Assembly: GCA_009599575.1 (NCBI GenBank)
Contig: VWND01000009.1
Span: 1,116,001-1,180,000 of the forward strand
Direction: 5' to 3'
DNA: 64,000 bases
Source: Blumeriella jaapii
Lineage: Eukaryota > Ascomycota > Leotiomycetes > Helotiales > Drepanopezizaceae
The notes under the pieces were generated by a model. It ran no database searches, was not told where the DNA came from, and worked only from the letters and a program-made list of their open reading frames with translations. Of the stretch, positions 7,807 to 29,846 are shown piece after piece (the first letter of the stretch is position 1; each line of letters starts with the position of its first letter). Both the position numbers and the translations under genes were made by a program.

Positions 7807-7839
7807 ATTAGCGTCGCTATCGGGATTGGCACCGCGAAT
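7807..7839. repeat. 33-bp palindromic micro-repeat, A1 protease-RT linker
   Basis: Left end ATTAGCG (one change from ATTCGCG) at 7807-7813, right end CGCGAAT at 7833-7839. Orthologues at 48771 (A3) and 59696 (A2). Relative to pol sense the unit is inverted compared with Gypsy-B. Confidence 0.87.
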
Positions 7840-8417: not shown

Positions 8418-8439
8418 TACGCTTAAAAAAAAGGCTTTG

Positions 8440-9930
8440 CTTAAACTTAAGCGTTTTTCCGATTGGCGGAAAAGCTTTCGACTTTTTCGTATACGTTTTA
8501 AAAATCGTTTAAAAAAGGGTTTTCGTTTTTATTATTATTATTAAAAAGCGAATTTTCGGCCGGCTCGATTTCGTTTATATTTATCAGTTTTTAAAAGAGC
8601 TTTTTGGGTAAAACCGAAAATCGGCTCGTAAAAGATCGTGCAGATTGGCTTTTTTGAACTTTTTAATATAAAATTAAAAATAAGCGTTATCGTTGGTCCG
8701 ATCGAAAAAAAATACGCTAAAAAAAACGTTTTAGCGTAAAAAAAAAAAAAAACAGCAAAGGGCTGAGAAAAAGCCTGTGAAGCATTTAAACGATTTTCGT
8801 ACGTACGATTTGACTCGTAATACGCTTTGGTTAAAAACTTATTATTTCAATAAATAATAAATTTGATTGAAAAGCGATTCGCGTATAAAATTCGTTCAGC
8901 TAATTAATCTTGTTTTTTTTAACGGACGGCGATAAGCTAATTTTAAAAATCGTTGTACGCGTTTATTTTAAATGTAATTTTTTTCGTAAACGCTTTAGTA
9001 TTTTATCGCGAAAAGCGTTTTAAAGCTGTTTGTCAGTTCGTATTTAAGCGTTCGCCGCGAAAATAAAAAATCGCAGGTAAAATCGCTAAAAATCGTCGTG
9101 CGTATTTATTACAAGCATTTTAAATTCGTTTTCGGTTTTTTAAACGTTTAAAAAGTCGGCTAGGAAATCGGCGACCATTTTGATTAATTTTTCGAAAAAT
9201 ATAAAATCGGAACGGTTTAAAATACGCGGAGTAAAAAACTTTTTTGCTACGCTTTCGGTTTAATCGAATATGTAATTTTTGCGCAATCGATCGTTAGCGA
9301 AATAATCGTGGTAAAGTTCGAAATTATCGAAAACTTTAGTTTTTTAATAGCGTGCTTTGTAATTTTTATTATTATTTAATTTAAATTTAAAATTCGAAAC
9401 GCGTTTTATACGAGCTAGTCGAAAATCAGCAAATAAATGGAAACCGTAGCGTTTAAAAAGCGCGCTAAGGTCTTGGCCGTCAAAAGGAAATTTAAAAAAA
9501 GTTCGCGAAAAGCGTGGAAATTGATTTGCAGCGATTATTAATTGAAATAAAACGTTGCGAAAAAAGAAAAAAGCAGCAGATTCGCGACTGGCAGAAGCAC
9601 GTTCGATAAATTTTATCAAACGCTTTAATTAAAAAATTTGTCGCAATCGTATAATTTCCAAAAGTTATCGTTTACGCTTTTACGCTTTTTTAATTGATTT
9701 TGCAAAAGTTTCAACTAAACGTTTTCAGCGCTAGATTGTAAAGAAAAAGTGGCAGGCGAAATGGTTGGCGCTTTGCTTTTTTTTTTGTTTTTTTTTCCTC
9801 GGAAAAAGAACTGTTTTTTAAAAAAAAAAGCTTTTGGGAAAGGCTGCTTTTTCGCTGATTAAAAAAAAAAAGATTAAAATATAGTAGCAAAAGCTGAAAA
9901 GCTTTGCTAAAAAAAAGATCGTTAAACAAA
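8440..9930 (-). pseudogene. A1 Gag (degraded)
   Basis: Retrotransposon gag relic. In several frames I can follow a helical capsid-like segment (for example SVARKFFTPRILNRSDF and RFYLRFSIFAANA in the better-kept A3 copy) that matches the layout of fungal Gypsy gag proteins. Open pieces at 9619-9344 and 9929-9711 belong to it. No clear zinc knuckle remains. It would form the particle shell. Confidence 0.75.
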
Positions 9931-10059
9931 AGCTATTTTTCGCAAAATGCGAAAATAAGCTTTTTTACGACCGGTCGATTATTTTAATATGATTCGTAAA
10001 AAATTCGAAAAAAAAAATAGTTTACGCCGTTGCTAGCGTAGAAAAAAAATTGTTAATAA

Positions 10060-10325
10060 TATATCGATCTAATCAGTCGGAAGGCTAAAAGATCAGTTAA
10101 CTGATCGCCGTATTTATATAATATAAAAAACGAGCTTTTGGTTTTATAACAAAAATATTCATTTAAAATCAATAATTGCAAAAGGCAGAAATTGCTAAAA
10201 AGAAAAAGCTTTATATATATAAATAGTTTTTACAGTTGATAGGAAGACCCACCAGAAGACCAGGGAGCTTGCAGCTATACGTAGTTGCTGGGGTGACACG
10301 AGGGGCAAAAGAATGAGTCGTCACA
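10060..10325 (-). repeat. A1 5' LTR
   Basis: 266 bp. In the element sense it begins TGTGACGACTC and, by RIP, ends ...CGATATA instead of ...CGTCACA. The right (outer) end is better preserved than in the partner LTR. No convincing tRNA primer-binding site is visible in the AT-rich bases just inside it. Confidence 0.95.
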
Positions 10326-10330
10326 AAATC

Positions 10331-12055
10331 GCATTTAAATTATTTAATTAATAACGAGCGCTTTTAATAAATTATTAGCTTTTTTATTTAATTAATCGAC
10401 AAAGATTTTTGCGTCCGTTTTTAAAATAAAATACACGCCGTATAATTCGCTTTTTATTTTTTTTATTGTTTTAAAAGCGCTTCGATATTTTCGTTTAATA
10501 GCATCGTAGCGTATTTCCGCGGAAAACTATAAGCCGCTTTCGAATCGTAAAAAATACCGTTTTTTATTTTTATCGATTTATTATAATATAATTTTTTAAC
10601 CGAAAATATTAGCGTCGATAATCAAAATGATTTTTTTTGCGTCTAAGCTGTAATCGATCCGCATAAACGATAAAACCGATAAAAAATCGTTTTTAAAAAC
10701 TTTTATAATTTTGTTTTACTTTTTTTCCTAAACGAAATCGATTTCTTTTTTTATCGTAGCGTAAATGGATGCAGTTTTTTAAAAAAAGTTTTTAATTTAA
10801 TTGCGATAATAAATTATAACGCTAATAAAAGCTTTGGCTTCGATAATATTTTTATATTTTTTTTATTCGTATATTTTTTTAAATTTCTTTCGTTAAAAAT
10901 AACGATTAGCGCTGTTAATTATATAATTAATAATATTTATTTCGAATATGCAAAATTTTAATCGAAAGCTAATAATAGCTTTGGCTTTTTCGAAACAGAC
11001 TATAATTTTGTCGATGTTTTAAATATATTTTATTATATAACGTCGAATTTTAAAAAGAATTTTTTTATTATTATAATATAATTTAAGGTTTTTTATTTCA
11101 ACGTCGTTAATATAAAAAAAGATAATATTAAAAATGCAAATTATAAGAATTTTATATACGACTTTTACAAATTAAACGACTAAATTAGTAATTTCTATAA
11201 ATACTTTCGTTATACGCAGCAGACCGATTAATATTTAAATTGCCGTTATATTTCGAAATCGTAAATCAAATACTAAATAATCGTAGCCGAAAAACAAATC
11301 GAAAAAAAAAGCAATTATTAATTTTGCGAATTCGTTTAAAAATTAATCGACGTTGGATAATACGTTAGCGTTTCGTATCGTTATTTTGTTTATTTCGACG
11401 ACCGTAATAATAAATTTGTAAATTTCTTTTTTTTTTTTTCGCAACGATAAATTATTTGTTTTTGTATAAATCGTGATAAAATTCGAAAATCTTTTGCTTA
11501 ATTCGTTTTTTTAACATTTCGACTATTTTATTTTAGAAAACTTTAAAAATTAAAAAAATCTTTTTTTACCAGGCTTCGTAAAATACGGTTTTGATATCGA
11601 TATAAAACGTAACGTTAAAATTAAATTGGCTTATTTCGGTGAAATCGAAGGCTATAGTTTTTTTTCGATTGCGTAAGATTTCGTATAAAAATTTTTTTTT
11701 TTTTGGCAAAAATTGAATTCCGATTGCTAAATTATTAAATCGTTTTTTTGTAAATCGGCTGCCAGATAACAAATTGGAAAATCGGCCGATAATAAATCTT
11801 TCGAGTTCGCTAGTAATTAGTTAAAATAGTTTTATTGCTTCGTTTTTTTCGAACCAATCGTTTATTTTTTCGAAAATATTTTTACCGAATTTATTAAAAT
11901 TTACGAATCGTATTTTATTAGCTTTGCGCTTGTAAAAAATACTGATATTAATATAAAAAAATAAAATATATAAATCGGATTTGTTTAATACGAAAACGAA
12001 ATCTTCGGAATTTTTATTTTCGAATTAATAATTAAAAATATTAATATTAGTTAAT
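10331..12055 (-). pseudogene. B1 reverse transcriptase-RNase H (degraded)
   Basis: Aligns in reverse with B2 18600-20320; the RNase H tail continues at 3904-3760 beyond the A1 insert. The open piece 11772-11566 contains FLYEILRNRKKTIAFDFTEI, then YIDIKTVFY, an RT N-terminal segment shared with B2. Downstream frames carry RT palm fragments between many stops. RNase H is interrupted by A1 at 3910-10325. Confidence 0.82.
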
Positions 12056-12058
12056 TTT

Positions 12059-12091
12059 ATTCGCGGTGCTATTTCGATTAGCGACGTAAAT
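12059..12091. repeat. 33-bp palindromic micro-repeat, B1 protease-RT linker
   Basis: Ends ATTCGCG (12059-12065) and CGTAAAT (12085-12091, degraded CGCGAAT). Orthologue of 18562-18594 in B2. Confidence 0.85.
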
Positions 12092-12189
12092 GCTTTTAGC
12101 CGAGTATTTTCTAAGTTTTGTTATAACTTAGCGTTTGTTTTAAAATCAAAGCCGGCTATTGTTTTTCCGATAAAACGTCGATTAAAAAG

Positions 12190-12620
12190 ATTTTGTCGCC
12201 GGCGACGGTAATTTAATTATAAAAAAATCGGTTCCAGTTTCAGAAAAAGGCTTTTATTTGGCCGTTTTCGGTGTATTTAAAGCTGACGAAATTCTTTAAA
12301 ATCTAAAGTATTTCGAAAATAATAAAATAAAAATATTTTTTTATCATTAAAATTTTTTTATAAATAATAATACTTTTAACGTCGATTTTTATATTTCGTA
12401 CAATTTTATTAAATTTAATAATATTTTTATTAACGATCGTATAAATTATTCGTTTGTCGATAATAATAAAAATATTATTAACTTCGGCTGTTTTCTGGTT
12501 TATATAATTAATTTCGGCTCTATTATCGAATAAAGCGAAAGCGGTCGTATTTTTCTTAAATATTATTTTTATTTTTAGCGCTTTTATAGCCGTATAAAAG
12601 CAGTTTCGTCGTTTTGACTT
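12190..12620 (-). pseudogene. B1 aspartic protease (degraded)
   Basis: Reverse counterpart of B2 18009-18413. The active-site region near 12540-12510 reads A-L-F-D-N-R-A-E-V-N, against D-S-K-T-E-V-N in B2. The two copies lost different residues of an ancestral D-S-G-A, as expected when RIP hits each copy separately. Confidence 0.8.
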
Positions 12621-12849
12621 TTAAATCTTTATAATAAAAGCTAAAAGGCTGATTTCTTCCGAAGATTTTTTTTTATCGGCTAAATTAACTGCGATATTAT
12701 AAATTTTTTTTTGATTTTTTTCTAATTTAAAATCGTTTTTTTTTTTCGAATAATTTTAATTTTCTCGTTTTTTTTTAATGCAAAGATTTGTTTATTAATA
12801 ATTTTGTCGAATCTTTCTTTTGTATTAAATAAATCGTTGAATTTTAATT

Positions 12850-14760
12850 TAATTTTTTGTTTTATAATTTTTTTAATAATTTCGTCGACCGCTTCGGAGC
12901 TAATATATTTATCGATTTATTTTTCGCTTCGTATTAATAATAAGCATTTAGAAGCTGGTACTTTTTAAATAATTTGAATCGGAATATCGGTGTCGATATT
13001 TTTTATATCGTCGCTAATTCTTTTTATTATAAGCGTTTTTTTAATAATTTTATCGGCTTTTTTTCGAATTTTAAAATCTTTTTTTTTTTCGATTCTGACG
13101 TTTTTTTTTATATTAATTAGTTTAGCGAATAAAATAAAAGCATTTTGCTTTTTTATAATTCGTTGGCTTAATTATACAGCTATAATATCTGCAGATGCGA
13201 TAATTGCATTAATAATATACGTATTTGTTTTCTATTCATATACTTAAACTTTATTTACGTTTAGAATAAAAGTTTTCTTTTTGATTAATACGCTTTTTAA
13301 AATGTTTTTTTTTTATTAATAAAAATCGTTTTTACATCCTTTTTATTTTCTAAGCAATCGTTCTATTCCGTATTTTTCATTTTTAAGCGCATAGTATTTA
13401 ACCAGTTTTAATTTTCAGCTTTATTAAAAAAGCCTATTCCTGTTTCCACCGGTCCGAAGCAAATCGCTCCGTACTTATTAATATAACAAATATTATTGTT
13501 TATATAAAAATTAAATACTTTGCATTTTAAGCGAATATAAGGTTTTTCGTAATAAATTTTTTTGTTATTACAAAATTCGCATTTAAGGCCACGAGATTTA
13601 TTTTAATAATTATTTTTACTATTTTAATAGCCGCGATTTTGATTTCCGCGTTAATTTTTTTTTTTCTCTGATAATCGTTGTTATAATTAATGTTTCGCTA
13701 ATTTTAATCGTTAATACGAAAAAGTTGCTACTGGGCAGTTATTATTTTTACGATAGCTTAGCGAAGCTGATCGCTTCGCGCATTTTAAAAAAAATAATTG
13801 TTATAAAAACTATTTTAATCGTTTTTATTATCCGAATTAACGTAAAAAATTTTTTTTTGCTATTGTATAAAACTTTCGATTTTGCTTTAAAATCCTTAAA
13901 TTTTAATATCGGTAAATTTTAATATAAAAGTTTCGATATTCTTATCAAGCTTTTCCAAGCTAATAAGCTTTGCGGAACGATTAAAGAATATAATAACTAG
14001 TTGTTTTTTAGCGATTTCGGTAACTTTTAGTGGCTGGGCATATTTTTGCATTAAAGCTTCTACGTCTTTTTTATAAATAAAAAAAAGGAATTTCTTTTAG
14101 TTTATAGCTTCGATAATACGTTCGCTTTAGTTTTGTTTGAAAACGAATTCTACGAATTTGAAATATTAATCGAAAGTTTTAAAATTTTATTTATTAATTT
14201 TAAAATGCTTAATAATTTTATTGCGAATGCTAATTGAAAAGCTAAATAAAAACAACTTTTCCTATTTAATTTTATTTAAAACTTTTTTGTTAACGAAAAC
14301 GTTAAAAACTTTCGTATAAATACGATAATAAACCTTAAGTTTTTTAATTTAACGAGTTATTATAATAAACTATTTAAAAAAAGCGATAATATCGCGAATT
14401 TGCTAGCGATTGTAGTTTCGGAATTTCGATTTCAAAGCTTTAACTAGCTTACGCTAATTTCGAGCCTTAATAACCTTCCATTTATTTATCGATTTAATAA
14501 TATCCTTGGTAATTAAATTATAATAACAAAGAAGTTTATCGAATATCTTAATTTTAAAAACTCCGAAATCCTTATAAATTTTTTTATATTTTTCGATAAA
14601 ATCGGTAACGTTGGCGCTACTAAATAAAAATGCATCAAAAAAGCCAAAAAAAAAGCATGCGGCCTCGCATAAGAAAACGAAGAGCGTCGTTGTTTATAAT
14701 GTTAATAAAAATATTGGTAGGGTTTGAATTAAATAAATAAATATTTTCTAAAATTGCAGA
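12850..14760 (-). pseudogene. B1 Gag (degraded)
   Basis: Reverse complement of the B2 gag region 15900-17690. Recognisable gag segments lie near 14690-14580 (the reverse of the ALLF-type start seen in B2 and B3) and the nucleocapsid end near 13650-13400. Hydrophobic open frames on the plus strand at 12990-13247 and 13725-13922 are antisense shadows of this gene. Confidence 0.75.
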
Positions 14761-14944
14761 TTAAGGGTTTTTAATATAAAAAAAATCGTTTTTAATAAAA
14801 AGGCTATTAAAAAAGTCTTTGTGTTTTTTAAAAAAATTAAATAAAATAAAATTGCGTTCAAATATTTAAGTAATATATTAAAAAATTTGTTTTTTAATAA
14901 GTTAATTAAATTGATATAATATTATTATATAATTTACGATTTCG

Positions 14945-14949
14945 ATATT
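14945..14949. repeat. Target-site duplication ATATT of B2 (left copy; right copy 33613-33617)
   Basis: The left flank ...TTTCGATATT and the right flank ATATTCCG... rejoin into the B1 leader sequence (compare 15705-15725 of B2 in reverse). One T is shared with, or lost at, the LTR start. Confidence 0.85.
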
Positions 14950-15214: not shown

Positions 15215-15890
15215 TTTGGTAATTTACGCAGGAATTTAAACTTCGGTGTTTCGTTTTTATATATTCGCCGATGCATTTTTTAAATTCGCAATCAAAATCG
15301 ATTTCGATATTTCGCTATTACGGCTTAAAAAACCTTTCATATAGTATTATTCGCAGCTGTATTATATAAAAGACTTTTAATAGCTTCTTTTATTTTGCGC
15401 ATAGTTATTAAACTATAAAAATGCAATATATTTCAAAAACGTCTGAAATTACGATCAGGCAATTCTAAACCGTATAAAATTCAAAGCTCGAAAATCGCTC
15501 TTTTGTTTAGGAATAACAAATCGAATATTGGTTCGTACGCTTCGATCGCTGCGCTCGGCCTTTTTGAACTAGATTTTTTTTGATCAAACATCTGGCGAAA
15601 ATTTAATTTTTTGATTTTACGTTTTATAATTATAGCAATTACAATTTGCGGCTTTTTATTAAAAATAATAAGGAAATGGCTGTACGTGCATTGGCCTAAG
15701 CTACGGAATATCGAAACCGTGGATTATATAACAATATTATATTAATTTAATTAATTTATTAAAAAATAAGTTTTTTAATATATTACCCAAATATTTGAAC
15801 GCAATCTTATTTTATTTAATTCCTTCAGAAAATATAAAAACCTTTTTGATAGCTCCCTTATTAAAAACAATTCCTTTTATATTAAAAACT
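15215..15890 (+). other. B2 leader between 5' LTR and gag
   Basis: No coding frame seen. It starts TTTGGTAATTTACGC directly after the LTR, a possible but unproven primer-binding site. The same leader occurs at 33613-34109 (reverse, B1) and 61082-61790 (B3). The stretch around 15680-15720 marks the point where B2 itself hit B1. Confidence 0.6.
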
Positions 15891-15899
15891 TTCAATCTG

Positions 15900-17690
15900 C
15901 AATTTTAAAAAATATTTATTTATTTAATTCAAATCTTATTAATACTTTCGTTAATATTATAAACAACGACGCTTTTCGTTTTTTTATACGAAATCGCATG
16001 CTTTTTTCTGGCTCCTTTGATACATTTTTATTTAATAGCGCTAATATTACCGATTTTATCGAAAAATATAAAAAAATCTGTAAGGATTCGGAATTTCTAA
16101 AACTAAAATGTTCGATAAACTCTTTCGCTATTATAATTTAACTACCAAAAATATTATCAAATCGATAAATAAATAAAAAGCTATTAAAGCTCGAAACTAG
16201 CGTAAGCTAATTAAAACTTTGAAATCGGAATTCCGAAACTACGATCGTTAATAAATTCGCGATATTATCGTTTTTTTTAAACAGTTTATTATAATAATTC
16301 GCTAAATTAAAAAACTCAAAGCTTATTATCGTATTTATACGAAGATTTCTAACGTTTTCGTTAATAAAAAGGTTTTAAGCGAGGTTAAGCAAAAAAAACT
16401 GTTTTTATTTGGCTTTTTAATTAGCATTCGCAATAAAATTATTAAGCATTTTAAAGTTAATAAACAAAATTTTAAAACTTTCGATTAATATTCCAAATTT
16501 ATAAAATTCGTTTTTAAATAAAATTAAAACGAACGTATTATTAAAATTATAAACTAAAAGAAATCTTTTTTTTTTTTTTACAAAAAAAACGTGGAAGCTT
16601 TAATACAGAAATATGCCCAGCTATTAAAAATTACCGAAATCGCTAAAAAACAATTAGTTATTATATTATTTAATTATTTTGCAAAATTTATTGGCTTGGA
16701 AAAGCTTAATAAAAATATCGAAATTTTCGTATTAAAATTTACCGATATTAAAATTCAAAAATTTCAGAGCAAAATCGAAAGTCTTATGCAATAGCAGAAA
16801 AAATTCTTTTACGTTAATTCGGATAATAAAAACGATTAAAATAGCTTTTATAACAATTATTTTTTTTAAAATACGCGAAACGATTAATTTCGCCAAGTCA
16901 TCGTAAAAATAATGGCTGCCCAGTGGCAATTTTCCCGTGCTAACGATCAGAATCAGCGAAATACTAATTATAATAACAATTATTAAAAAAAAAAAGAAAA
17001 TCAACGCGAAAACCAAAATCGCGGCTATTAAAATAATAAAAATAATTATTAAAACAAATTCCGTGGCTCTAAATATAAGTTTTGTAATAATAAAGAAATT
17101 CATTGCGAAAAATCCTATATTCGCTTAAAATGCAAAGTATTTAATTTCTGTATAAATAATAATATTTACTATATTAATAAATACGAAGCGATTTGTTTCG
17201 GACCGGTAGAAGCAGAAATAGGCTTTTTCAACAAAGCTGAAAACCAGAGCTGATTAAATATTATTCGTTTAAAAGTGAAAGATACGGAATAGAACGACTG
17301 TTTGGAAAACAGGAAAAATACGAAGACGATTTTTATTAGTAAAAAAGAAAATATCTCAGAAGGCGTATTAATTAAAAAGAAAACCTTTATTTCAAATATA
17401 AATGGAATTTAAGTATATAAATAAAACAAATATATATATTACCAATGTAATTATCGTATTTACAAATATTATAGCTGCATAATTAAGCCAGCGAACTATA
17501 AGAAAGCAAAATGCTTTTATTCCATTCGCCAAACCGACTAATATAAAAAAAAACGTTAAAATCGAAAAAAAAAAAGATTTTGAAATTCGAAAAAAAACCG
17601 ATAAAACTATTAAAAAAACGTTTATAATAAAGAAAATTAATAACGATATAAAAAATATCGACACCGATATTCCGGTCCAAATCCTTTAAA
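15900..17690 (+). pseudogene. B2 Gag (degraded)
   Basis: Gag relic in several frames. An early segment reads FLFNSANITDFIEKYKKICK, the capsid start I associate with this fungal Gypsy lineage. A middle segment includes KKVLSEVKQKKLFLFG, and 16591-16794 is open. The nucleocapsid end near 17120-17230 shows L-K-C-K-V-F-N-F and further Cys/Gly remnants of a zinc knuckle. Minus-strand hydrophobic frames at 16732-17103 and 17392-17680 are antisense shadows. Confidence 0.78.
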
Positions 17691-18008
17691 AAATACCAGC
17701 TTTTAAACGCCTATTATTAATACGAAGCGAGAAATAAATCGATAAATATATTAATTCCGAAGCCGTCGACGAAGCTATTAAAAAAATTATAAAATAGAAA
17801 ATTAAATTAAAATTCAGCGATTTATTTAGCATATAAAAAAGATTCGATAAAATCATTAATAAACAAATTCCTGTATTAAAAAAAAACGAAAAAAATTAAA
17901 ATCATTCGAAAAAAAAACGATTTTAAATTAAAAAAAAATCAAAAAAAAATTTACAATATCGCCGTTAATTTAGCCGATAAAAAGAAATTTTCGGAAAAAA
18001 TCAGCCTT

Positions 18009-18413
18009 TTGGCTTTCGCTATAAAAACCCAAAAGTCAAAACGACGAAACTGCTTTTACACGGCTATAAAAGCATTAAAAATAAAAATAATATTTAAAAA
18101 AAATACGACCGCCCTCGCTTTATTCGACAGTAAAACCGAAGTTAATTGCATAAACCAAAAAACGGCCGAAGCTAATAGTATTTCGATTATCACCGATAAA
18201 CGAATAATTTACACGACCGTTAATAAAAATATTATTAAATTTAATAAAATTGTACGAAATATAAAAATCGACGTTAAAAATATTATTATTTATAAAAACT
18301 TTCTGATAATAAAAAAATGCTTTTATTTTATTATTTTTAAAATGCTTTGGATTTTAAAAAATTTCGTCAGTTTTAAATACACCGAGAACGGCCAAATAAA
18401 AGCTTTTTTTTAA
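18009..18413 (+). pseudogene. B2 aspartic protease
   Basis: The longest open stretch of this copy, about 134 codons. The active-site segment reads ALALFDSKTEVNCINQKTAE: D-S is kept, but the following Gly-Ala has become Lys-Thr. The flap region and the second hydrophobic segment (FKMLWILKNFVSFKYTE) follow in retropepsin order. It cleaved the Gag-Pol polyprotein. Inactive as it stands. Confidence 0.85.
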
Positions 18414-18561
18414 AATTAAAACCGATTTTTTTAAAATTAAATTATCGTCGCCGGCGATAAGATTTTTTTAATCGACGTTTTATCGAAAAACGAATAGCCG
18501 GCTTTAGTTTTAAAACAGACGCTGAGCTATAATAAAACTTGAAAAATACTCGGCTAAAAGC

Positions 18562-18594
18562 ATTTACGTCGTTAATCGAAATAACACCGCGAAT
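18562..18594. repeat. 33-bp palindromic micro-repeat, B2 protease-RT linker
   Basis: Ends ATTTACG (degraded ATTCGCG) and CGCGAAT (18588-18594). Read in pol frame as F-T-S-L-I-E-I-T-P-R-I, the same frame as the other B2 units. Confidence 0.87.
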
Positions 18595-18599
18595 AAAAC

Positions 18600-20480
18600 T
18601 GGCTAATATTAATATTTTTGGCTATTAATTCGGAAATAAAAATTCCGAAGATTTCGTTTTCGTATTAAACAAACCCGATTTATATATTTTACTTTTTTGT
18701 GTTAATATTAGCATTTTTTATAAACGCAAAACTAATAAAATACGATTCGTAAATCTTGGCGAATTCGGTGGAAATATTTCCGAAAAAATAAACGATTGGT
18801 TCGAAAAAAATAAAATAATAAAATTACTCTAATTAATTATTAGCGAATTCGAAAAACTTATCACCGGCCGATTTTCCAGTTTATTATTTGGCAGCCGATT
18901 ATAAAAAAACGATTTGATAATTTAGTAATCGGAATTTAATTTTTATTAAAAAAAAAAAAATTTTATACGAAGTTTTACGCAACCGAAAAAAAGCTATAGC
19001 TTTCGATTTTACCGAAATAGGCCAATTTAGCTTTAACGTTACGTTTTATATCGATATTAAAACCGTATTTTACGAAATCTGGCAAAAAAAAACTTTTTTA
19101 ATTCCTAGAGCTTTTTAAAATAAAATAATCGAAATGCTAAAAAAACGAATTAAGCAAAAGATTCTCGAATTTTGCCACGGCTTATACAAAAACAAATAAT
19201 TTATTATTGCGAAAAAAAAAAGCATTTACAAACTTATTATCGTAATCGTCGAAATAAACAAAATAACGATACGAAATGCTAACGTGTTATTTAACGTCGA
19301 TTAATTTTTAAACGAATTCGCAAGATTAATAATTGCTTTTTTTTCGATTTGTTTTCCGGCTACGATTATTTAATATTTAATTTACGATTTCGAAATATAA
19401 CGGCAATTCAAATACTAATCGGTTTGCTGCGTATAACGAAAGTATTTATGAAAGCTATTAATTTAATCGCTTAATTCGTAAAAGTCGTATACAAAATTTT
19501 TATAATTTGCATTTCTGATATTATTTTTTTTTACGTTAACGACGTTAAAATAAAAAGCTTTAAATTATATTATAATAATAAAAAGATTTTTTTTGAAATT
19601 CGACGTTATATAATAAAATATATTTAAAATATCGACAAAGTTATAGTTTGCTTCGAAAAAGCTAAAGCTATTATTAGCCTTCGATTAAAATTTTGTATAT
19701 TCGAAATAAATATCGTTGATTATATAACTAACAGCGCTGGCCGTTATTTTTAACGAAAAAAATTAAAAAAATTTGCGAATAAAAAAAATATAAAAATATT
19801 ACCGAAGCTAAAGCTTTTATTAGCGTTCTGATTTACTACCGCAATTAAATTAAAAACTTTTTTTAGAAAGCTGCATTTATTTATGTTACGATAAAAAAAA
19901 AGTCGATTTCGTTTAGAAAAAAAAGCAAAATAAAATTATAAAAGTTTTTAAAAACGATTTTTTATCGGTTTTATTTTTTGTCCGGATCGATTATAATCCA
20001 GACGCAAAAAAAATTATTTTAATTATCGACGCTAGTATTTTCGGTTAGAAAGTTGTATTATAACAAATCGACGAAAACAAAAAGCGACATTTTTTACGAT
20101 TCGAAAGCGGTTTATAATTTTTCGCTAAAGCACGCTACGATATTATTAAACGAAAATATCGAAGCGTTTTCAAAATAATAAAAAAAATAAAAAGCAAATT
20201 GTACGGCGTACATTTTATTTTAAAAACAAACGCAAAAGTTTTATCGATTAATTAAATAAAAAAGCCAATAATTTATCAAAAGCGCTTGTTATTAATTAAA
20301 TAGCTTAGATACGATTTATAAATTTCGAAATTAAATATATTAAAAAAATAATTAATATAGCGGCAAACGGCCTTTTTAAACGAAAACGTTTTTATCCGTT
20401 TGATTTCGCTAAATAAAGCGAATAAAATATCGACGAATAAATCGCTAACGAAATCGGCTGCTTTGCTATTTGCGCTTTAG
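18600..20480 (+). pseudogene. B2 reverse transcriptase-RNase H (degraded)
   Basis: RT fragments in order: VTFYIDIKTVFYEIW near 19040-19080, IVEINKITIRNANVLFNVD near 19240-19300, and NEFARLIIAFFSI near 19310-19350. These parallel the finger and palm motifs of this Gypsy lineage (V-N-D-L-R-x-L-N, then the F-S-G-Y region). The catalytic Asp-Asp box is not readable in one frame. RNase H occupies about 19760-20480, with stops and frameshifts throughout. Confidence 0.82.
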
Positions 20481-20499
20481 GTTTTATAAAGCCGAAACT

Positions 20500-20532
20500 A
20501 TTCGCGTTGCTATTTCGGCTGGCACCGCGAAT
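20500..20532. repeat. 33-bp palindromic micro-repeat, B2 RNase H-integrase linker, unit 1
   Basis: Perfect ends ATTCGCG and CGCGAAT. In element frame it reads F-A-L-L-F-R-L-A-P-R-I. Together with unit 2 it is the best-preserved copy. Confidence 0.92.
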
Positions 20533-20562
20533 AAAAAACATTAATTTTCGGGCCGAAAAAGC

Positions 20563-20595
20563 ATTCGCGTTATTATTTCGGCTGGCACCGCGAAT
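20563..20595. repeat. 33-bp palindromic micro-repeat, B2 RNase H-integrase linker, unit 2
   Basis: Same arms and loop as unit 1, starting 63 bp (21 codons) later and so in the same frame: A-F-A-L-L-F-R-L-A-P-R-I-N. Confidence 0.92.
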
Positions 20596-20769
20596 AAATT
20601 TAACCGAAAATAATCGGAATAAATCGATTAACGACGAAAATAAACTTTAATCGATAACTACGAAACCGAAAACTTTTATTTAATCGTATATTATTTAATT
20701 ATTTTATTTAAATTATTTAACGTATTAAATTATTAATTTAAATTATTTAAAAACTAAGCTTTCGATTAT

Positions 20770-22080
20770 ATTTTAGCCGATAAAAAGCTGTATAAAATGG
20801 AAAATAATATATATTAAAAACGCTTAATCGTAGATAATAAAGCCGACAAATTTCAAATTATAAAAAAAGCTTACGAAAAAATGTTTTATAAAAAAGCTAA
20901 AGCCATTTATCACCGAATTAAAAATAATTTTTAATAGAAAAAATGCTTCGAAAACTGCAAAGCTTTCGTTAAAAGCTGCGTTTTTTGCTAAAAACGAAAG
21001 CTTGGCCGAAAAAAAAATCTATTATATCCGACGTAATTTTCTGAAATTTAAAAAAAAGTTAATTTCGACGTTATACGCGTACCGATTATCGACCGCGAAT
21101 ATATATATTTCGTATTAGCTATCGACGATTTTTTTGAATAATTTAAAAAGCGATTTTTCCGAAACGCTATTTTCGAAATTATAGCGATTTTTTTTTAAAA
21201 AAACGTTATATATCGACACGATTTATTTAGCAAATTAAACGTCGATAATAAATCCGAAAACAAAAGCGTTATCGAAACTTTTATAAAAAAAATACGGAAT
21301 TTAACGTATTTAAATTTTAGCTTATAATTCGAAAAGCAACGGATTCGTTAAACGAAGTTATAAAAATATTTTCGACGGGCTTTTAAAAGCCATTCGAAAG
21401 AATTATAAATGTTGGTCGCGGAAATTTTCGGAAATGCTTTTTGCTATACGTATATATATATACGTTTTTATTAAAATAATTTTATTTTTTATTTAATACG
21501 GCAAAAACGCTCGATTGCTTTTGGAAATAAAATAGCCCGTATAAAAGCTTTATAACGTAATTAAAATGAAAACGAAAGCGGATTTATTAATAATAAAATT
21601 TAAACAGCTAAATTACCGCGATATAAATATAAAAAAAATAATTTAAAAAAAAAAAATATAAAAAAGCAGCTAAAAAAGTCTGAAATAAAACTAAAATTTT
21701 AAAAAAAACGCTAATTAAAAAAGAAAATCTGGTTTTAGTTTATAATATCCAGCGCGCTATTAATAAATCGGCCGATATTAAATTTAATTATAAATAGCTC
21801 GGATTTTACGAAGTATACGAAGCCGAATTAAATAAAAGCTATTATAAGCTTACGGAATTCGATGGAATAAAACTAAAAAAAACGTTCGCTGCTAATCGGT
21901 TAAAACGATTTTATAAAAAAAACCAGCAAATCTATTTTTTAAATTCTAATTTAAACAACGACTTCGATTTCAGCGATTCCGACGACGATTCCGATTAAAA
22001 CGATTATACTTCTGAAGAAAAAAAACTTTTTAGAAAGGTTTAAAAACAACCGAACGATAATTTCGCTGCTGAAAACATTA
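20770..22080 (+). pseudogene. B2 integrase with GPY/F-type C-terminus (degraded)
   Basis: The HHCC zinc-binding end shows Y-H-R-I-K-N-N-F and later C-V-F-C near 20860-20990. The core start resembles VIRVPIIDREYIYFVLAIDD near 21065-21130 (first catalytic Asp in D-D-F). The C-terminal module at 21760-21920 runs L-G-F-Y-E-V-Y-E-A, then KLTEFDGIKLKKTFAANRLK. A short acidic tail (DFDFSDSDDDSD) follows. Frequent TAA/TAG stops. Confidence 0.85.
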
Positions 22081-22481
22081 TTTAAATCGTGATTTTATTT
22101 ATAACCGAAAAAAAGAAAAGTGCATACAAGATTATTTATTAATTATTTTACTGTTTTTTGTTATTTATTATATTTTTTTTTATTATATACTGTTTTATTG
22201 TTTTTGTTTTGCTTTACTTATATATAATTTAATTATTTTGTTTTATATATATTATTTATTTCTGAAACTTTTTTTTTATATTATTTAAAATATTTATTAT
22301 ACTTTTTTTTGTTTAATTATATTTTTGTTTATCAGAACAAAAGCTTTGTATATATTTAAGCCGTATATTTAATATATTTATATTATTCGTATATTTTACG
22401 AAAACTATTTTTTATGCATTTTATTATTTATTATTTTCTGTACTATTTACTTTTCTCGTTATTTTAAACGAATGCTTGCTT
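22081..22481 (+). other. B2 AT-rich post-integrase segment up to the Gypsy-E insertion
   Basis: Very T-rich, with no credible frame. It continues at 29847 once Gypsy-E is removed, and its reverse counterpart is 1740-2135 in B1. Confidence 0.6.
22477..22481. repeat. Target-site duplication TGCTT of Gypsy-E (left copy; right copy 29842-29846)
   Basis: TGCTT flanks both LTRs. B1 near 1750-1770 (reverse complement) shows the empty site with a single copy. Confidence 0.92.
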
Positions 22482-22893
22482 TGTAAGAATTGAAAGGCAG
22501 GGAAACACTAGTTCAGACAATAGAGCTCAGATAAGGTTGGGTTGATAATCAGACTGATTTCTACCTTTTATATTTCTAGTAAAAGGCGTGTATAAGTACA
22601 AAAGGAGGGATGAAGCTTTCGAAAAAAGTATTTTTCAGGAAACCAGGCGAATTTTATTTAGTATGCTTTCCAGCCCTTATCCCGACCTTTTTTTATTTTT
22701 TTTAATATAATTTTAATAATTAGTTTTTTAGCAATTATTCTTATAAAATGTTTTATTTAAATATTATTTTCAGCTTTTATAATACTATCCGGCTTTTACG
22801 GCCTATTCGCAGAAAATGCTATTCGAGAATTAATAAAAGGCAAAAAGTTTTAGCGGATTATCTGATTTATATACGTGATATTGGTTTTTAATA
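22482..22893 (-). repeat. Gypsy-E 3' LTR
   Basis: 412 bp, starting TGTAAG and ending TTAATA (intact form CTGACA). The outer left third is near-intact (AGTTCAGACAATAGAGCTCA); the inner two thirds are RIP-altered. Confidence 0.94.
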
Positions 22894-23104
22894 TTACTTT
22901 TTTTTCTAGGCTTTTGGTTTTTAAAAGCGATTGATTTTTTTATACGTATGCTTCCGTATATAGCGTGCGTTACGCTTTCGAAATAACGTGCGGTTTTTTC
23001 CGCTTTTGGTCGTAAATTATAGCTGTTTTTTCCGCTTTCGGTCGTGAATTATGGCTGTTTTGCTGTTTTGTTTTTTTTATTTTCGGTAGCGTTTTGCATT
23101 TTCG

Positions 23105-23152
23105 TTGAAAAAGCTTTTTTTTTTAAAATGGCCGCTATTTTTCTGCTTAACT

Positions 23153-23183
<31 letters not shown>

Positions 23184-23938
23184 CGTCAGCTTTTTTTTTT
23201 TATTTTAATCAATTGTTTTTCGCTGCGTTCGCCGCGAATTTTCAAAATGCTTTTGATTTTTATCTGCTTTCGGTGCGCCCGTTTAATTTTACGCGAAAGT
23301 ATTACAGCGAATTTTTTGCTTTTTTGCGTTTTCGAGCTTTTTAGCGTAAAATGCAATCGCTGCAAAATTTCGCATATTTAATGCTTTTTTATAAATCTTT
23401 TAGGTTTTTATTCGAATTCGCTTTTAATTAGTTACAAATTCCTATCGCACGCGCTATCGAGACGCAAATATTTTTCGCGAGCTTTAACGATTTTATAAAT
23501 CGTTTCGATATTATTACCGCCGCTGCCGTTTTTTTTTTTTTTGCTGCCGAAGCTAAAACTTTTGCTAAGATTTTTATCGATTTTATTATTTACGACGTTT
23601 ATATAAATCGTTTAAAAAAAGATGACGCTTCGGCTTTTATAATAATCGGAAATCGTGCGAATCGCGCCGCGGCTCGGGCTGCCGCCGCTGCTGCTGCGTC
23701 CGTTTCTGCCGGTTTAGCGGCTGCTGCTATTTTAGAAGTTTTGGCTGCGCCGGCTTTTTTTTTTAACGACGCTAATATAAAACGTATTTTCCGACGTTTC
23801 GAAAACGTCGCTCGGATTTATTTTAATTAATTGGGTTAAATTTTGAATTTTTACGAAAATATCGTAGTTGCAATTCAGAATTCGATTACGGCTATCGTAG
23901 AAGCTTTGATTAGGATAAGTCGAATATTTTGCGAATTC
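23105..23938 (+). pseudogene. Antisense open frame downstream of Gypsy-E pol, unknown product
   Basis: One plus-strand frame from 23105 to 23938, about 278 codons, broken by only four or five TAA/TAG stops that all could be former Gln codons. It includes a run of 132 codons without a stop (23432-23827). That part has alternating charged helices and an Ala-rich block (ANRAAARAAAAAAASVSAGL). It is antisense to pol and lies between integrase and the 3' LTR. A 29-T run at 23155-23183 makes the N-terminal part doubtful. I do not recognise the product. It could be an accessory protein or a chance frame in GC-rich sequence. Confidence 0.4.
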
Positions 23939-24319
23939 GTTTAGTATTAATTTTTTTTAGCCTGCCGTTGCTTTTGAGTCTAAAAGAAATAGCGATGACG
24001 ATAGGAAAAGAAATAACGATAATAAAAATAAATTGGCTTAGCGGCGGTTTTAGGGTTTTTTCTAAGTGTTTTTGTTTTTTTTTTTTTACTTTTACGGCGC
24101 GTATTTGTTACTGCTTCGTTGCTATCATTTGTCGTATTTTTTAAATATTTTTTTACAATCTTTTTTGCGTTCGTAAAATGGTTTTCTGGCTTTTAAGAGT
24201 CTTCGCTTAATAAATAGTTTTTTTATCGTACCAAATAATATCGGCTTTTTTTTATATTTTTGTGAGTTTATATTAATTTAACTTTGTATTTTTCTGGTTT
24301 TTGAAATTTTATTATATTA

Positions 24320-25640
24320 TTTTTCGGCTCGGTGTCGTTCCGATTTTGCCAAGGTTTTAATAAGAAAACGTGAAAAGTATCGTAAATACGATATTAAAAA
24401 GAAAGCTCGAATTGGTAAGTTTGGCCGTGCTCGTATATAATTCGTTTAATTTTAAAAAGCTTTAGATATTTATTTAAAAGCTTTCGAAAAAGTCGCAGCT
24501 ATCGAAGGTTTTTAATCGATAATAGTATTTTATCGCCTATTTGAAATCTAGTCTTTTTATGTTTAGCGTCGTAAAATCTTTTATAATTCGCGTTGGTTTT
24601 TTTTAGCTTTTTATTAAGTTTTTTTTTTTTTTTTTATAATATTTTAATTCGTTTTTCCGCTGACGATACTTTTTTTTTTACGACGTCGCTTTCGACGTTG
24701 CTGCCAAGTTTTAAATAAAAGCCGTATAATATGCGAAAAAAAATAAAATCCGTAGAGGCGTATATCGAATTATTATACGTAAACTCGGCTAAAGCAAGTT
24801 TCGTAGCCCAATCGTTTTGTCGATAATCGCAGTACGTGCGAAAATAAAATTTTAAAATTTGATTTTAACGTTTCGTTTAATTATTTGTTTGAAAATAAAA
24901 AGCGGTGCTTAATCGACGTCGTATTTGTAAATGAAATATTATTAAAAATCAGAATTTATTAGTAAAAACTGACCTTTTGTTTGTAATAATTTTTTTAAAA
25001 TAGCCAAAATTTTTGTAAACGTATTATATAAATATCTCAGCTAAATCTGAAGTTGAAATCGTTTTTTATATCGGTATATATTTCGACAGCTTCGTATATC
25101 GGTTTATTATAACGAATATCGAATCGTAAATACGATTTCGTTTTTTATTAAAAGATAAATTCGTAATAAAATTTATAATTATTTTTTTTTAAAATTTCGT
25201 AAAAGTCGAAAAGAAAGCTAACTCGCTATAAGGTCGGTGCTTTTTAAGCTTGCTTTTCTAGCATTTTTTATACGTATTAACGTAACGTTTTACGTCGCTT
25301 TGTAAACCAGGCCAGAAATACTTTTTTTCGACCAGTTTTAGCGTTCGTCGAAAGTTTTAATAGCCGGCGGTCGGATCGTCGTAATTAATTTTTAATATTT
25401 CGCTTTTAATAACGCTTTTATTCGGAATATACGCACGTTTTTTGTAACGTAGTAATTTATTTTGGTTTATACGCCAGTATTTTTCGAATCCGGCTCGATT
25501 GTTTTGCGAAGCCGATTCGTACGTTTTTTATAATATAAAAAAATCAGATTTTTGCAATTTAAAAATAGTTTTATGAATCGGTTTTGTTAGCTCGTTATTA
25601 ACCGTTTCGAATTATAACAATATAGCGGCTACGCTTCGTG
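24320..25640 (-). pseudogene. Gypsy-E integrase (degraded)
   Basis: The zinc-finger side reads YFWPGLQSDVKRYVNTYKKC near 25330-25270, followed by KSKLKKHRPY. The core shows FVIINRYTKLSKYIP and RRRLSTAFYFQTNN (family H-P-Q-T-D-G-Q-T-E). WATKLALAEFTYNN and the C-terminal GPY/F-like part end near 24320. This is the canonical Ty3 order. Inactive through stops. Confidence 0.88.
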
Positions 25641-25649
25641 GTATATATT

Positions 25650-27260
25650 ATTTGTAATTAATAATATTAGCAAAAGATAATTCGGCGAAAAAGCCTTTTA
25701 TTTGGCTTTTTTCCGCTTGCTTTTTATTTTCTGATTCCGTTAATAAAAGCTTCGAATATTTATCGGCGCGAAATAGTTTATGCCTCGATTTTAGGCGTGT
25801 TTTTATTGCGGAAAACATTTTAGAATTTTTTAAATAAGCTAATTTTAGTTTACGATATAACGTAAGTAGCTGTTCGTTATTTTTTTTTAAATTCTTTTTT
25901 AAATTTGGCCGGCGAAAAAAATTATTCGCCGGGTTAAAAACTTTTGTTTTATATTCGATTGCAAAATCGTATTTAGCTAACTTGTCGGCCTATTTCGCTT
26001 GGCGTCCGTTTAAACGTTTTTTTATAAAAAAGTATTTTAAATTATAATAATTTATACGTATAATAATAACGTCGGAAGCGCTACGTAAATATTGGCTTTA
26101 TTATTTGAAAACGTAAATTATAATTATTAATTTAGCGTCGTAAACCTCGTATTTTTGTTTTATAGAAAAAAGCTTTTTCGAATAATATGCGATAGGGTGC
26201 CAACGTGCTTTCGCATTTCCGAACAATTAGAATAATATTCCGCTTATAACGAATTTCGAAGCGTTTATTTCGATTTGGATTTTTAATCGAGGGTCGAAAT
26301 AGCGTAGAATCGGTGCTTAGCAAAATTTTTCTTTTAGAAGTAAAAAAGCGAGCTTCGCTTCGAATAGGAAACGAAAAGGGCCCGATATTTTTTTTTATTA
26401 TATTTTTTTTAAAAGATTTGTAATAAATCGGCAAAGCTTAGCGTAGTTTTTAATAAAACGTTTGTAAAAATTAGTAAAACCCAAAAATATTTAAATATTT
26501 CGCTACGTAATAAAAAAAGGCTATTTCCGAATATTATTTATTTTTTCTGGGTTTATTTTAATTTCCGTAAAAGTAACGACGAAGCTTAGGAATTTAATCG
26601 TATTCGTATCGAAAGCATATTTTTTCAGATTTCCGTAAAGTTTATTAATACGAAGTTTTTCGAAAACTTTTTTTATCGCGTTTGTATAATCGTCGGGGTT
26701 TTCGAAAAATATTAAAATATCGTCGAAGTAAATTATATATGTAATATTTATTAAACCGATTAAAACTTGATTAATATACGCTTGAAAGGTTGCTAGTGCA
26801 TTCGAGAGGCCGAAAGGTAATACGTAGTATTCGAAGTGTTCGTAACGAATGCGAAACGCAGTTTTCTATTTATTTTTCTTTTTTATTCGAAAGCGGTGGT
26901 ACGCCCAAATGAAATTTAGCTTAATAAATATTTTAGCTTTTTTTAAACGATTTAAAGTTTCGTTGATAAAAGGTAGAAAAGTTCGATTTTTAACCGTAAC
27001 TGCGTTTAGATTTTTATAATCGACGTATAATCGTAAACTTTCGTTTTTTTTCGGTATAAATATTATCGGTGCGCCGGCAGAATTAATAGATTTTTTTATC
27101 TAGCTTTTTTTTAAGTTCGAATCGAGATATTCGCGCAATTCGGTAAGTTCGGATTTCGACAAAAGGTAAATTGGTTTTTAAAAGAAGTTTTTTTTTTCCG
27201 CGAAGTTTATTCGATGCTTTATAGGATAGTAAAAAGCTAGGGTAACCGCGGCGGTATCGT
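25650..27260 (-). pseudogene. Gypsy-E reverse transcriptase-RNase H (degraded)
   Basis: RT start: GAPIIFIPKKNESLRLYVDY near 27080-27020. Then LPFGLSNALATFQAYINQVL, the catalytic box IIYFDDILIFFENPDDY near 26745-26690 with both Asp kept, and FYKRFIKNYAKLCR near 26480. RNase H at about 26430-25950 includes IEINASKFVISGIL (catalytic Asp changed to Asn; family E-T-D-A-S) and WHPIAYYSKKL. Clear Gypsy RT with fewer lost motifs than Gypsy-A. Confidence 0.92.
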
Positions 27261-27479
27261 TAAACACGTCGGCGTAATCGTCGTATTTAAAAGGTAATTA
27301 ATGCTGTTTTTTAGTAGCTTTTTTTAAAACGATATAAAACGCTTGTTTTTTTTAGATTTTTTTTTTAAAACGTTTGATTGTAACGAAATTAAATTGTAAG
27401 CGTTCGATTGGGTATCGCTACGATTTAATTCGAAAGTTTATAGCGGGATCGATATTTCGCAACCAAAGGAATTTTAGAA

Positions 27480-27830
27480 TAAATAAAACCTTTGGGATAT
27501 TTATATCGCAAGCTACGAAATCGCTTTGTATTTTTTTAGTTGTTTTATAATTATCAATAGCGCGAATAAATTGCGTATGCGTATCGTAGATAGTTATTTC
27601 TTTTTTTTTAATCGTAGATAAATTAATACGTTTTTAAATTGGTTTTTATTTATATTTAATTAATAACTTTTGAGTTACGCAGTTTTTCTCCGCGCCGTAA
27701 TCGATAAAAGCTCGTTTCGTACGAGTTTCGCTTTTGGCTTTTTTAATTTCGATTGAAATTATTATTTTCTGCTTTTTTTTTTCGCTCGATTTTGTTAGCA
27801 GCGACGAAATTAAAATCGAACGGAAGTTTT
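27480..27830 (-). pseudogene. Gypsy-E aspartic protease (degraded)
   Basis: The active-site segment reads RAFIDYGAEKNCVTQKLL near 27730-27680, a D-S-G-A with Ser replaced by Tyr. It sits between the zinc-knuckle Gag end and RT. Confidence 0.8.
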
Positions 27831-27869
27831 TTCCGAATTTTTAGATTTGTTAGCTTCGAAGCAGTTTAA

Positions 27870-29110
27870 AGTTATATATTTTTTTTTGTTATATTTATAA
27901 TATTCGATTTTTAAATAATTGGCTATGCGGTATTTTTTTTTTTGGCAGCGATTGCATTTCGAAAAGTAAAAAAAGTCGTTAAAAGTTTTAAGATTTCAAA
28001 GGATTTTATTAAAATTGTCGTTTTTTCGCTTTCGTTTTTCTTTTTGTGACGTATTTTCGAATCGAAAACGGTATATATTTGTTTTAGCTTTTAAATTTTA
28101 ATCGTAAATATAAATCTTTTTTTTTTTTTTTTTTTTTTTTGCGTTTGTTTCGTCGTTTATTATTTTTCGTTTTGTCGCTAATAATTTTATTAGCATTTTC
28201 GATACGACGAGCGATTAATACTAATTTTTCGTACGAGCTTGTAGCTGTAATATTACTTCGTTTAATAATTTTTTTTCGAAAAGTAAGTCGGAGTTTTGCG
28301 AAAAGCATTTTTTTTTTAGTCGCATCGTTTGTTATTTGCAACTGCTGTTCGAGATTATTTAAATAAGCAACGAAATCGTTAATTGATTTATGCTTTTTTT
28401 GCTTCGTTTTATCGTATAAATTCGAAGCTTCGATTTCTCGATTTTCCGTATTTATTAGAAAGTTTAATATTTATTTTTTGAAATCGTTTTATATGGTTCG
28501 AATATTCGTAGAACGTCGTTCGTATCCGGTTTATTTTTTTTTTATTTTATCGTCGAAAGCTAAAACACAGGCGTTAATTTTCTTTTGATCGGTATAAAAT
28601 ATTACTTTTTTATTTTGGCGGAAGCTTCGTTTTGCACGCCGAATAAAAAATTAAGCTTTTTTAATATTTTTCTTTCGATATATTAAAAAGTCTTTTATTT
28701 TTAATATTTTTCGGCTCGAATTCGCTGTGTTTTTTATAAAAGATATAATATGTTTAAAAGAAATGCTAGGTCGTTTCTAATAAGTATTATTATCGTAATA
28801 CTTCGAGGATATTTTATAATAATCGCCGGCTTGGGTTATTTTCTGTTTTTTTTTAATTGGAACGGTGTTAAAAAGTATAGAAATCTTTTTTTTGATATTT
28901 TCGAAAGCGTCGAATTTTCGTTGAAATTGTTTAACTTTTTTTCGGAATTCGTTTCGGCGTTTTTTGGTTTTTTCGAGTTTTTTAATTATTTCGTAGATTT
29001 TTTTTTTAGTTTTTTTCTGCTTTATTTTAGCTTATATTTTTTTTATTTTTTTACGTTTATCGTTTTTTTTTTGTTCGGCGCGGATTCGTTTATTAATCAA
29101 ATAAATTAAA
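27870..29110 (-). pseudogene. Gypsy-E Gag with coiled-coil N-terminus and zinc knuckles (degraded)
   Basis: The N-terminal part (29110-28760) is a Lys/Glu-rich coiled coil (EIIKKLEKTKKRRNEF-type). The capsid part follows with KKVIFYTDQKKINACVLAF and SINDFVAYLNNLEQQLQ. The end of capsid, SSYEKLVLIARRIENANK, is open at 28341-28084. Two zinc knuckles near 27970-27870 begin C-N-R-C-Q-K-K-K-Y, with His and later Cys mutated to Tyr. A hydrophobic plus-strand frame at 28750-29109 is the antisense of the coiled coil. The leader 29111-29432 shows no coding signal. Confidence 0.85.
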
Positions 29111-29432
29111 ATTTCGATGAAAAGTCCTTTCGAATCGCTTTAAGCGTGGCTTTTTTCAGTGATTTCTTCGATAGAAAAAGTTAGAAAGTCGTCGCGCTTT
29201 GGTAATAAAGTATTTTCGACCTTTAGTAAGGCTAGTAACGTTAGGGGAAACGATGGTACGAGGTTTTTTTAAGCAGCCGAAAGTGCTGAATCTTTTTAAA
29301 TAGCTAGAAATGCTTGTTTTTTGCGAGTGCGAAAAGCTATAATATCGATAATAACGATATAAGTGTAATAATATAATAGGAGGTTGTTTTAGTAGTATCG
29401 AACTGCCGTTCCGGTAGGTAAAAAGATCAAAA

Positions 29433-29841
29433 TATAAAAATTAAAAGGCAGAAAAATATTAGTTCAGATAATAAAGCTTAAATAAGGTTGGGTTGATAGT
29501 CAGATTGATTTTTACTTTTTACATTTTTAATAAAAGGCGTGTATAAGTACAAAAGAAGGGGTGGAGCTTTCGAAAAAAGTATTTCTTAAGAAACCAGGCG
29601 AACCCCATTTAGTATGCTTTCCAATCTATCCCGATCTTTTTTTATTTTTTTAATATAACTTTAATAACTGGTTTCTTAGTAATCACTTTTATAAAATGTT
29701 TTACTTAAATGTTATTTCCAGCCCTTATAATACTATCCGGCCCCTACGGCCTATCCGCAGAGAGTGCTATTCGAGGGTTGGTAGGAAGCAGAGGGTTTTG
29801 GCGGATCACCTGACTTATACACGTGATGTTGGTTCCTGACA
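29433..29841 (-). repeat. Gypsy-E 5' LTR
   Basis: 409 bp, matching 22482-22893. The outer (right) half is near-intact (CCTATCCGCAGAGAGTGCTA); the inner left third is RIP-altered, mirroring its partner. Confidence 0.94.
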
Positions 29842-29846
29842 TGCTT

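Follow-up and report, generated by a model that had tools for sequence, protein, structure and literature searches.

To our knowledge, most examples of coding palindromes that move from gene to gene come from a few bacteria. The palindromic elements of Rickettsia are approximately 100-150 bp long. Excerpts of two papers (PMC6649704, PMC2996958) describe the elements of Rickettsia and Wolbachia as short palindromic DNA lying in frame within protein genes, and the Rickettsia elements are said there to lose their repeat identity over time. In the mitochondria of Magnusiomyces capitatus, short inserts that an excerpt of PMC6649704 calls palindromic occur at many places in protein genes, where, according to an excerpt of PMC5009743, they disrupt the reading frame and are bypassed in translation. 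Two further systems share some of these properties. The GalEa Conserved Hairpin Site, as described in part of PMC5445492, is an imperfect hairpin in which one mismatch is strictly conserved and the loop varies more freely; it occurs once, beside the 5' LTR of a fungal Copia element, and is thought to act in transposition. PARCEL, in an excerpt of PMC2996958, consists of coding 75-nt tandem repeats with dyad symmetry, which encode an amphipathic domain and have spread from gene to gene. Here we describe a unit of 33 to 35 bp in two families of Ty3/Gypsy retrotransposons; a literature search covering titles and abstract openings found no description of such a unit.

A 33-bp unit at five sites in two retrotransposon families

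The window, i.e., the whole 64-kb stretch that we analysed (C9:1116001-1180000, from a genome of 47.4 Mb in 91 contigs), is a nest of elements by self-comparison. The original prediction placed eleven 33-bp intervals in it, and at all 11 starts, distributed over five sites, we found 33 bp made up of the two arms it describes around a middle of 7 nt; its opening count of ten copies gives way to eleven, as its own closing remark already says. S5 belongs to Gypsy-A, of which copies A1, A2, and A3 lie on the minus strand and each contain it, while S1-S4 belong to Gypsy-B, where copies B1 (minus) and B2 (plus) carry the units in the order S4, S3, S2, S1. The units are as follows.

566..598, minus strand: S1 unit of B1, in the post-pol open frame 442-843 (minus)
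3627..3659, minus strand: S2 unit of B1, RNase H-integrase linker by putative domain order, in open frame 3488-3781 (minus)
3690..3722, minus strand: S3 unit of B1, same putative linker, 63 bp from S2, in open frame 3488-3781 (minus)
7807..7839, plus strand: S5 unit of A1, protease-RT linker, antisense to pol (pol on the minus strand)
12059..12091, minus strand: S4 unit of B1, putative protease-RT linker
18562..18594, plus strand: S4 unit of B2
20500..20532, plus strand: S3 unit of B2
20563..20595, plus strand: S2 unit of B2
30997..31029, plus strand: S1 unit of B2, in open frame 30752-31333 (plus)
48771..48803, plus strand: S5 unit of A3, antisense to pol (pol-sense open frame 48606-48851, minus)
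59696..59728, plus strand: S5 unit of A2, antisense to pol

The elements that carry them were delimited by self-comparison.

3909..10323, minus strand: Gypsy-A copy A1, nested in B1 and bounded by ~260-bp terminal repeats
44868..59458, minus strand: Gypsy-A copy A3, pieces 44868-49090 and 57321-59458 with another element between
35537..60813, minus strand: Gypsy-A copy A2, pieces 35537-37230, 42891-44866, and 59463-60813 with other elements between
1..14949, minus strand: Gypsy-B copy B1, pieces 1-3909 and 10326-14949, interrupted by A1
15707..31599, plus strand: Gypsy-B copy B2, pieces 15707-22481 and 29842-31599, where 31599 is the point at which the B1 match leaves the window and not a proven element end

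The element inserted in A3 (49090-57319) has 301-bp terminal repeats that are 90% alike and is somewhat less AT-rich than its surroundings. No tRNA genes were found in the 64-kb window.

With 28% GC, CpA at 0.50 of expectation and CpG at 2.99, the window has the dinucleotide composition of RIP-like loss that spares CpG, which makes it easier for CpG-rich words such as the unit arms to stay recognisable. Copies with little RIP were picked from a search with the Ty3 RNase H domain family, in which 150 of 1,684 candidates were scored and several Gypsy copies had open frames of approximately 800-1,312 codons beside heavily worn ones. We found the unit in all five low-RIP Gypsy-A copies read at S5 (L076, L088-L091), each time in an open pol-sense frame. 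The 33-mer is identical in four of them, ACTGGCGTCGCCA TCGAAAT TGGCACCGCGAGT, with the peptide TRGANFDGDAS, and the fifth, L091, has two arm changes and the peptide TRGANFDSDAN. Low-RIP copies, one of the five being partly worn, read ACT..AGT and CCA..TGG where worn copies read ATT..AAT and TA..TA, which indicates that the latter are worn forms. The similarity thus holds in less-mutated copies, a point on which the original prediction had staked itself, and our data indicate that the unit belongs to recent elements and is no mutation artefact. Among ten Gypsy-B places chosen for low identity (28-33% GC) none was a low-RIP copy, and all ten carry the unit. A separate Gypsy-A fragment (L077) has 49% GC.

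We scanned the window for similarity to the arms of a low-RIP Gypsy-A copy, counting a transition as half a mismatch. The eleven intervals cost 2.0-4.5, the sole further place at a cost of 7 or below was position 12986 (7.0), and the lowest costs in eight Markov-resampled windows were 7.5-8.5. The genome-wide pattern search that had been proposed gave 1,209 exact matches for CGYNRYTAN7WRRCACCGCGAAT and none for the reversed control; the genome patterns consist of RIP-worn letters and would miss copies with little RIP, such as any in host genes. The same pattern occurs at 22 prokaryotic and 3 viral places, none of which has both full arms, and a low-RIP pattern had 0 matches in viral contigs.

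The unit is antisense to pol in Gypsy-A and sense in Gypsy-B. Within Gypsy-B, S1-S4 all have one relative frame, as had been proposed; S1, S2, and S3 lie within open frames, and S4 was assigned to its frame by measuring the 270 nt that separate it from the RT open frame (11569-11820). The broader claim of one in-frame DNA unit in two Gypsy families also stands, with the opposite orientations to pol as a correction that we add. In Gypsy-A, S5 lies between protease and RT, a placement backed by relatives, including one protein (P0118) with both domains flanking the linker. For Gypsy-B the domain order draws on a weak RT-RNase H similarity in B1 at 11438-10437 (best E 1e-5; an earlier comparison with six queries found no similarity there), on a sub-threshold Pfam match of the protease piece to RVP_2 (E 0.027, the best sensible match, with nothing above cut-off among ten open-frame pieces), and on motifs picked by eye in the translations that we take to be those of the respective domains. 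This weak similarity and these motifs would place S4 between protease and RT, with S3 and S2 in the spacer that separates RNase H from integrase. S1 lies 3.06 kb beyond S2 in a separate open frame and, by eye, well past integrase.

The frame of the Gypsy-B protease piece differs from that of S4. By distance, the protease-like open frame (17880-18410 plus; 12306-12620 minus) is out of frame with S4 and RT in both Gypsy-B copies, and it may need a frameshift. Gypsy-B also has a hydrophobic open stretch after integrase (1916-2140 minus) and a lysine-rich open frame around S1 (442-843 minus), a possible extra gene.

Ends, pairing, and loops of the unit

We compared 95 units, taken from the window, from fetched loci, and from a 200-kb part of contig C1. 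In 94 of them a pyrimidine (C or T) stands before the left arm, at column -1, and a purine (A or G) after the right arm, at column +1; the exception (L068) is interrupted there by a Gypsy-A LTR. This C/G-type pair extends the arms to 14 bp and the unit to approximately 35 nt. Since columns +2 and +3 are A nearly everywhere, the right end is uncertain and may extend further.

Pairing was counted in 90 units; five more that escaped sorting by their flanks, and look like S2 or S4 by eye, were excluded. Over the 14 columns, Watson-Crick pairs averaged 9.9 at S1 (n=26), 9.8 at S2 (n=13), 11.1 at S3 (n=14), 9.2 at S4 (n=16), and 9.8 at S5 (n=21), which is lower than the approximately 12 of 13 bp that had been predicted. 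Column 8/26 is paired in at most 5% of units at every site; column 9/25 is never paired at S1 and S5 and always at S2 and S3; column 4/30 is never paired at S5 and column 13/21 never at S1; and column 10/24 is paired in 8% of units at S2 and 56% at S4. Fixed pair-breaking changes at several sites indicate that the sequence is better kept than the structure, and the description of the unit as structure-conserving is not supported. Predicted RNA folding was uneven. S3 (-15.4 and -13.8 kcal/mol) and one S1 copy beat shuffles, while both S2, both S4, and two of the three S5 copies in the window were no better than shuffles. Among low-RIP units, the 35-nt unit of L088 reached -14.4 and -16.1 kcal/mol as RNA of the two strands, outdoing 195 of 200 shuffles on one and all 200 on the other, and that of L091 was no better than shuffles.

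The loops are GCAAAAA at S1, TTTCGGC at S2 and S3, ATCGAAA at S4, and TCGAAAT at S5. The S4 and S5 loops are one 7-mer offset by one base, and the S2/S3 loop, inverted, matches the S4 loop save for two transitions. With shifts and inversion allowed, the likeness among the four loops exceeds that of random 7-mers (P 0.002, post hoc), while a single loop pair as good as S4/S5 has a P of 0.13. The arms are alike across sites, as originally described, but the loops are not plainly unrelated. In loop length we found two variants, both 2-nt deletions; a wider gap pattern gave 276 matches, with a 7-nt loop in all of the 100 matches listed.

The left arms of the 16 S4 units are mostly of the TTTACGTCGC or the TTCGCGTTAT form, some being mixed, and both forms are reachable through CG-to-TA changes; they perhaps mark Gypsy-B subfamilies. 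The low-RIP right arm starts with TGG, which we take to resemble a tRNA-primed site, although there is no TGG after the Gypsy-A 5' LTR (its end placed by eye), and we rejected a primer-site role. As a separate observation, the absence of a TGG-type site at 10000-10080 and 59130-59215, again with the LTR end placed by eye, means that Gypsy-A priming may be unusual.

Fixation and origin of the unit

We asked whether sites lacking the unit exist. In fetched DNA, where loci were obtained by pattern and are biased toward filled sites, the gap was 33 in all 71 two-flank copies (S1 21, S2 12, S3 12, S4 11, S5 15). Partial matches with one flank (8 at S2, 13 at S3, and 3 at S5) were set aside, those at S2 and S3 being cross-matches to the neighbouring repeat. 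Joined-flank queries were scored for 40 of 480 candidates at S4 (39 at +33, one at +30), 40 of 472 at S1 (all +31 to +34), and 40 of 603 at S5 (12 two-flank copies, all +33, and 28 right-flank-only places broken off at the joint). Genome-wide, an empty allele was seen in 0 of 92 two-flank copies of S1, S4, and S5, with most candidates unscored. By eye, no direct repeat of the kind that a target duplication would leave is common to the joints.

Further sites and donors were sought in several ways. No sixth site was found among 11 matches with unusual loops (10 and 1, with odd letters at loop position 2 or 6, a search covering about three quarters of random loops) or among five matches with foreign right flanks (two S2, three S4). 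Orphan arms in worn letters numbered 11 left and 11 right genome-wide (1 in each control); 9 of the 11 left and 6 of the 11 right ones are damaged known copies by their letters, three of these were read in context, and no clear donor copy in worn form was recognised among the orphan arms. A larger donor with the ends of the unit was rejected on a half-arm census of the fetched DNA, in which 89 and 87 half-arms lie inside units, whereas those outside number 9 and 12, are weak, and often fall in two other repeated contexts. With no sixth site, no clear donor, and no empty allele here, mobility is not shown. The original prediction that the unit spread between families keeps its basis in DNA shared by the two families but loses mobility, and the lack of empty alleles in this genome matches its own sign of an old fixed segment. 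The units are old and fixed in the copies examined, and present mobility is without support.

To find relatives, we took the RT frame of one low-RIP copy of Gypsy-A as the query. Monilinia, Podosphaera, and Diplocarpon, the first two near the top, are named among the best 120 of its 5,070 hits, in which identity reaches 79% (across 60% of the query), and they suggest a leotiomycete host. Among these 120, the RT core was recognised by pattern in 62, and seven, one of them from Diplocarpon, extend further to the HQxDAxRRD anchor, which precedes the place of the unit. Nine unit peptides, with five shuffles each, were compared with all 120 listed proteins; top scores were 19-28 against self-scores of 51-71, and the two that exceeded shuffles (27 vs 26 in P0032, 27 vs 24 in P0079) are not among the seven. 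A clear unit peptide was found in 0 of the 7 linker-spanning Gypsy-A relatives among these best 120 of 5,070, in which linkers vary widely in length and the alignment is too poor to define a joint. As judged from protein sequences, relatives without the peptide would fit a gain in the present lineage. There were no RT relatives in viral contigs, and nothing related emerged when proteins were searched for the S1 open frame of Gypsy-B (287 candidates) or for the linker frame of Gypsy-A (646 candidates).

These observations can be read in several ways. A cis-acting signal (an RNA hairpin or a DNA site that binds protein) under selection in both families, for example for a function in packaging, priming, or regulation, would fit arm sequences that are alike across five sites and the better-than-shuffled folds of L088, S3, and one S1 copy; in part of PMC5445492, moreover, the Copia hairpin site of GalEa, in an extended form of 33 to 62 bp, is common to distant elements of one species. 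However, that site adjoins the 5' LTR, unlike the unit, which occupies one site in Gypsy-A versus four in Gypsy-B, has opposite orientations to the transcript in the two families, carries fixed pair-breaking changes, and folds no better than shuffles at S2, S4, two of three S5 copies in the window, and low-RIP L091. We consider such a signal unlikely. A similarly low probability attaches to passive exchange of a short stretch between Gypsy-A and Gypsy-B through recombination or gene conversion where the elements are nested, with the palindrome irrelevant. The families do come close together, since A1 is nested in B1 187 bp from S3 and at one locus (L068, C17, ~1528) a Gypsy-A LTR starts exactly where an S4 unit of Gypsy-B ends, and the S4 and S5 loops have their 7-mer in common with a one-base shift. 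Yet, A-rich bases aside, the likeness ends at the palindrome boundaries, and the unit sits at four separate positions in Gypsy-B.

A motif at the protein level, such as cleavage sites of the element protease between pol products, appears very unlikely to us. Although the Gypsy-B units would fall at protease/RT, RNase H/integrase, and post-integrase positions in one relative frame, the DNA is antisense in Gypsy-A and encodes another peptide, silent codon positions are common to the sites, and S1, at its distance from S2, lies well past integrase by eye. Chance likeness or a product of RIP has the least to commend it. AT-rich DNA of this composition (28% GC, CpA 0.50 of expectation) lets CpG-rich words survive, and 264 kb scanned contains 32 non-unit hairpins with at least 11 of 13 pairs, compared with 17 within units; but the control gave 0 matches, resampled windows were never as close, and the unit is clear in low-RIP copies. 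This reading, to which we assign next to no probability, is refuted in practice.

The explanation that we prefer, and to which we give about an even chance, is an ancient in-frame insertion of near-palindromic DNA into two Ty3/Gypsy families before they multiplied, inherited since then. A segment of 33 to 35 bp would have entered coding spacers once in Gypsy-A and at S4, S3/S2, and S1 in Gypsy-B, before the multiplication of the present-day copies, and relatives without unit peptides would represent the older state. S2 and S3, which have a common loop, probably arose by local duplication. The unit would have survived because 33 bp is eleven codons without stops (the low-RIP Gypsy-A 33-mer is stop-free in all six frames) and because spacers tolerate extra residues. 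Later it would have been carried along through retrotransposition while its letters drifted, largely by changes of the C-to-T type. Simple template switching from one sense RNA to another is hard to reconcile with the opposite orientations, and copying may have involved a short DNA or hairpin piece; the unit was probably copied a few times between and within the two families. A stronger version, in which a nuclear micro-element of about 35 bp inserts as a hairpin in either orientation into retrotransposon coding spacers, as a parasite of parasites whose loop flips between the arms (S2/S3 versus S4/S5), is conceivable but rather improbable.

If the preferred explanation of ancient insertion and inheritance holds, a 35-bp unit in two retrotransposon families would provide a eukaryotic case whose small size suits simple assays, and it would show a route to new linker peptides in transposon proteins. 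The 1,209 exact worn matches together with the low-RIP Gypsy-A copies make the history of the unit readable.

Comparison with known systems

The inserts of Magnusiomyces capitatus, as excerpted in PMC6649704 and PMC5009743, make the original statement that there is no fungal counterpart too strong. They resemble the unit in being short and in occurring at many places in protein genes, and differ from it in that the unit is nuclear and adds eleven codons in frame, so that translation has no need to bypass it. Compared with the single GalEa site beside the LTR (PMC5445492, in part), the unit occurs several times, in or after Ty3/Gypsy pol, although both combine an imperfect hairpin and a kept mismatch with a freer loop. 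PARCEL (PMC2996958, in excerpt) is likewise coding DNA with dyad symmetry found in several genes, whereas the unit is mostly single and not a tandem repeat. The unit has inverted ends as a MITE does, but, by eye, no common direct repeat at its joints.

The closest likeness in kind is to the palindromic elements of Rickettsia and Wolbachia. At 33-35 bp the unit is shorter than the Rickettsia elements. It belongs to a nuclear, probably fungal genome, where the worn-letter matches that we examined lie in just two retrotransposon families, with no host gene and no empty allele seen. Like those elements, it is an imperfect palindrome (on average 9-11 of 14 pairs) in frame within open frames. By analogy, the unit works like a coding palindromic insert and would be a candidate member of the Rickettsia type.
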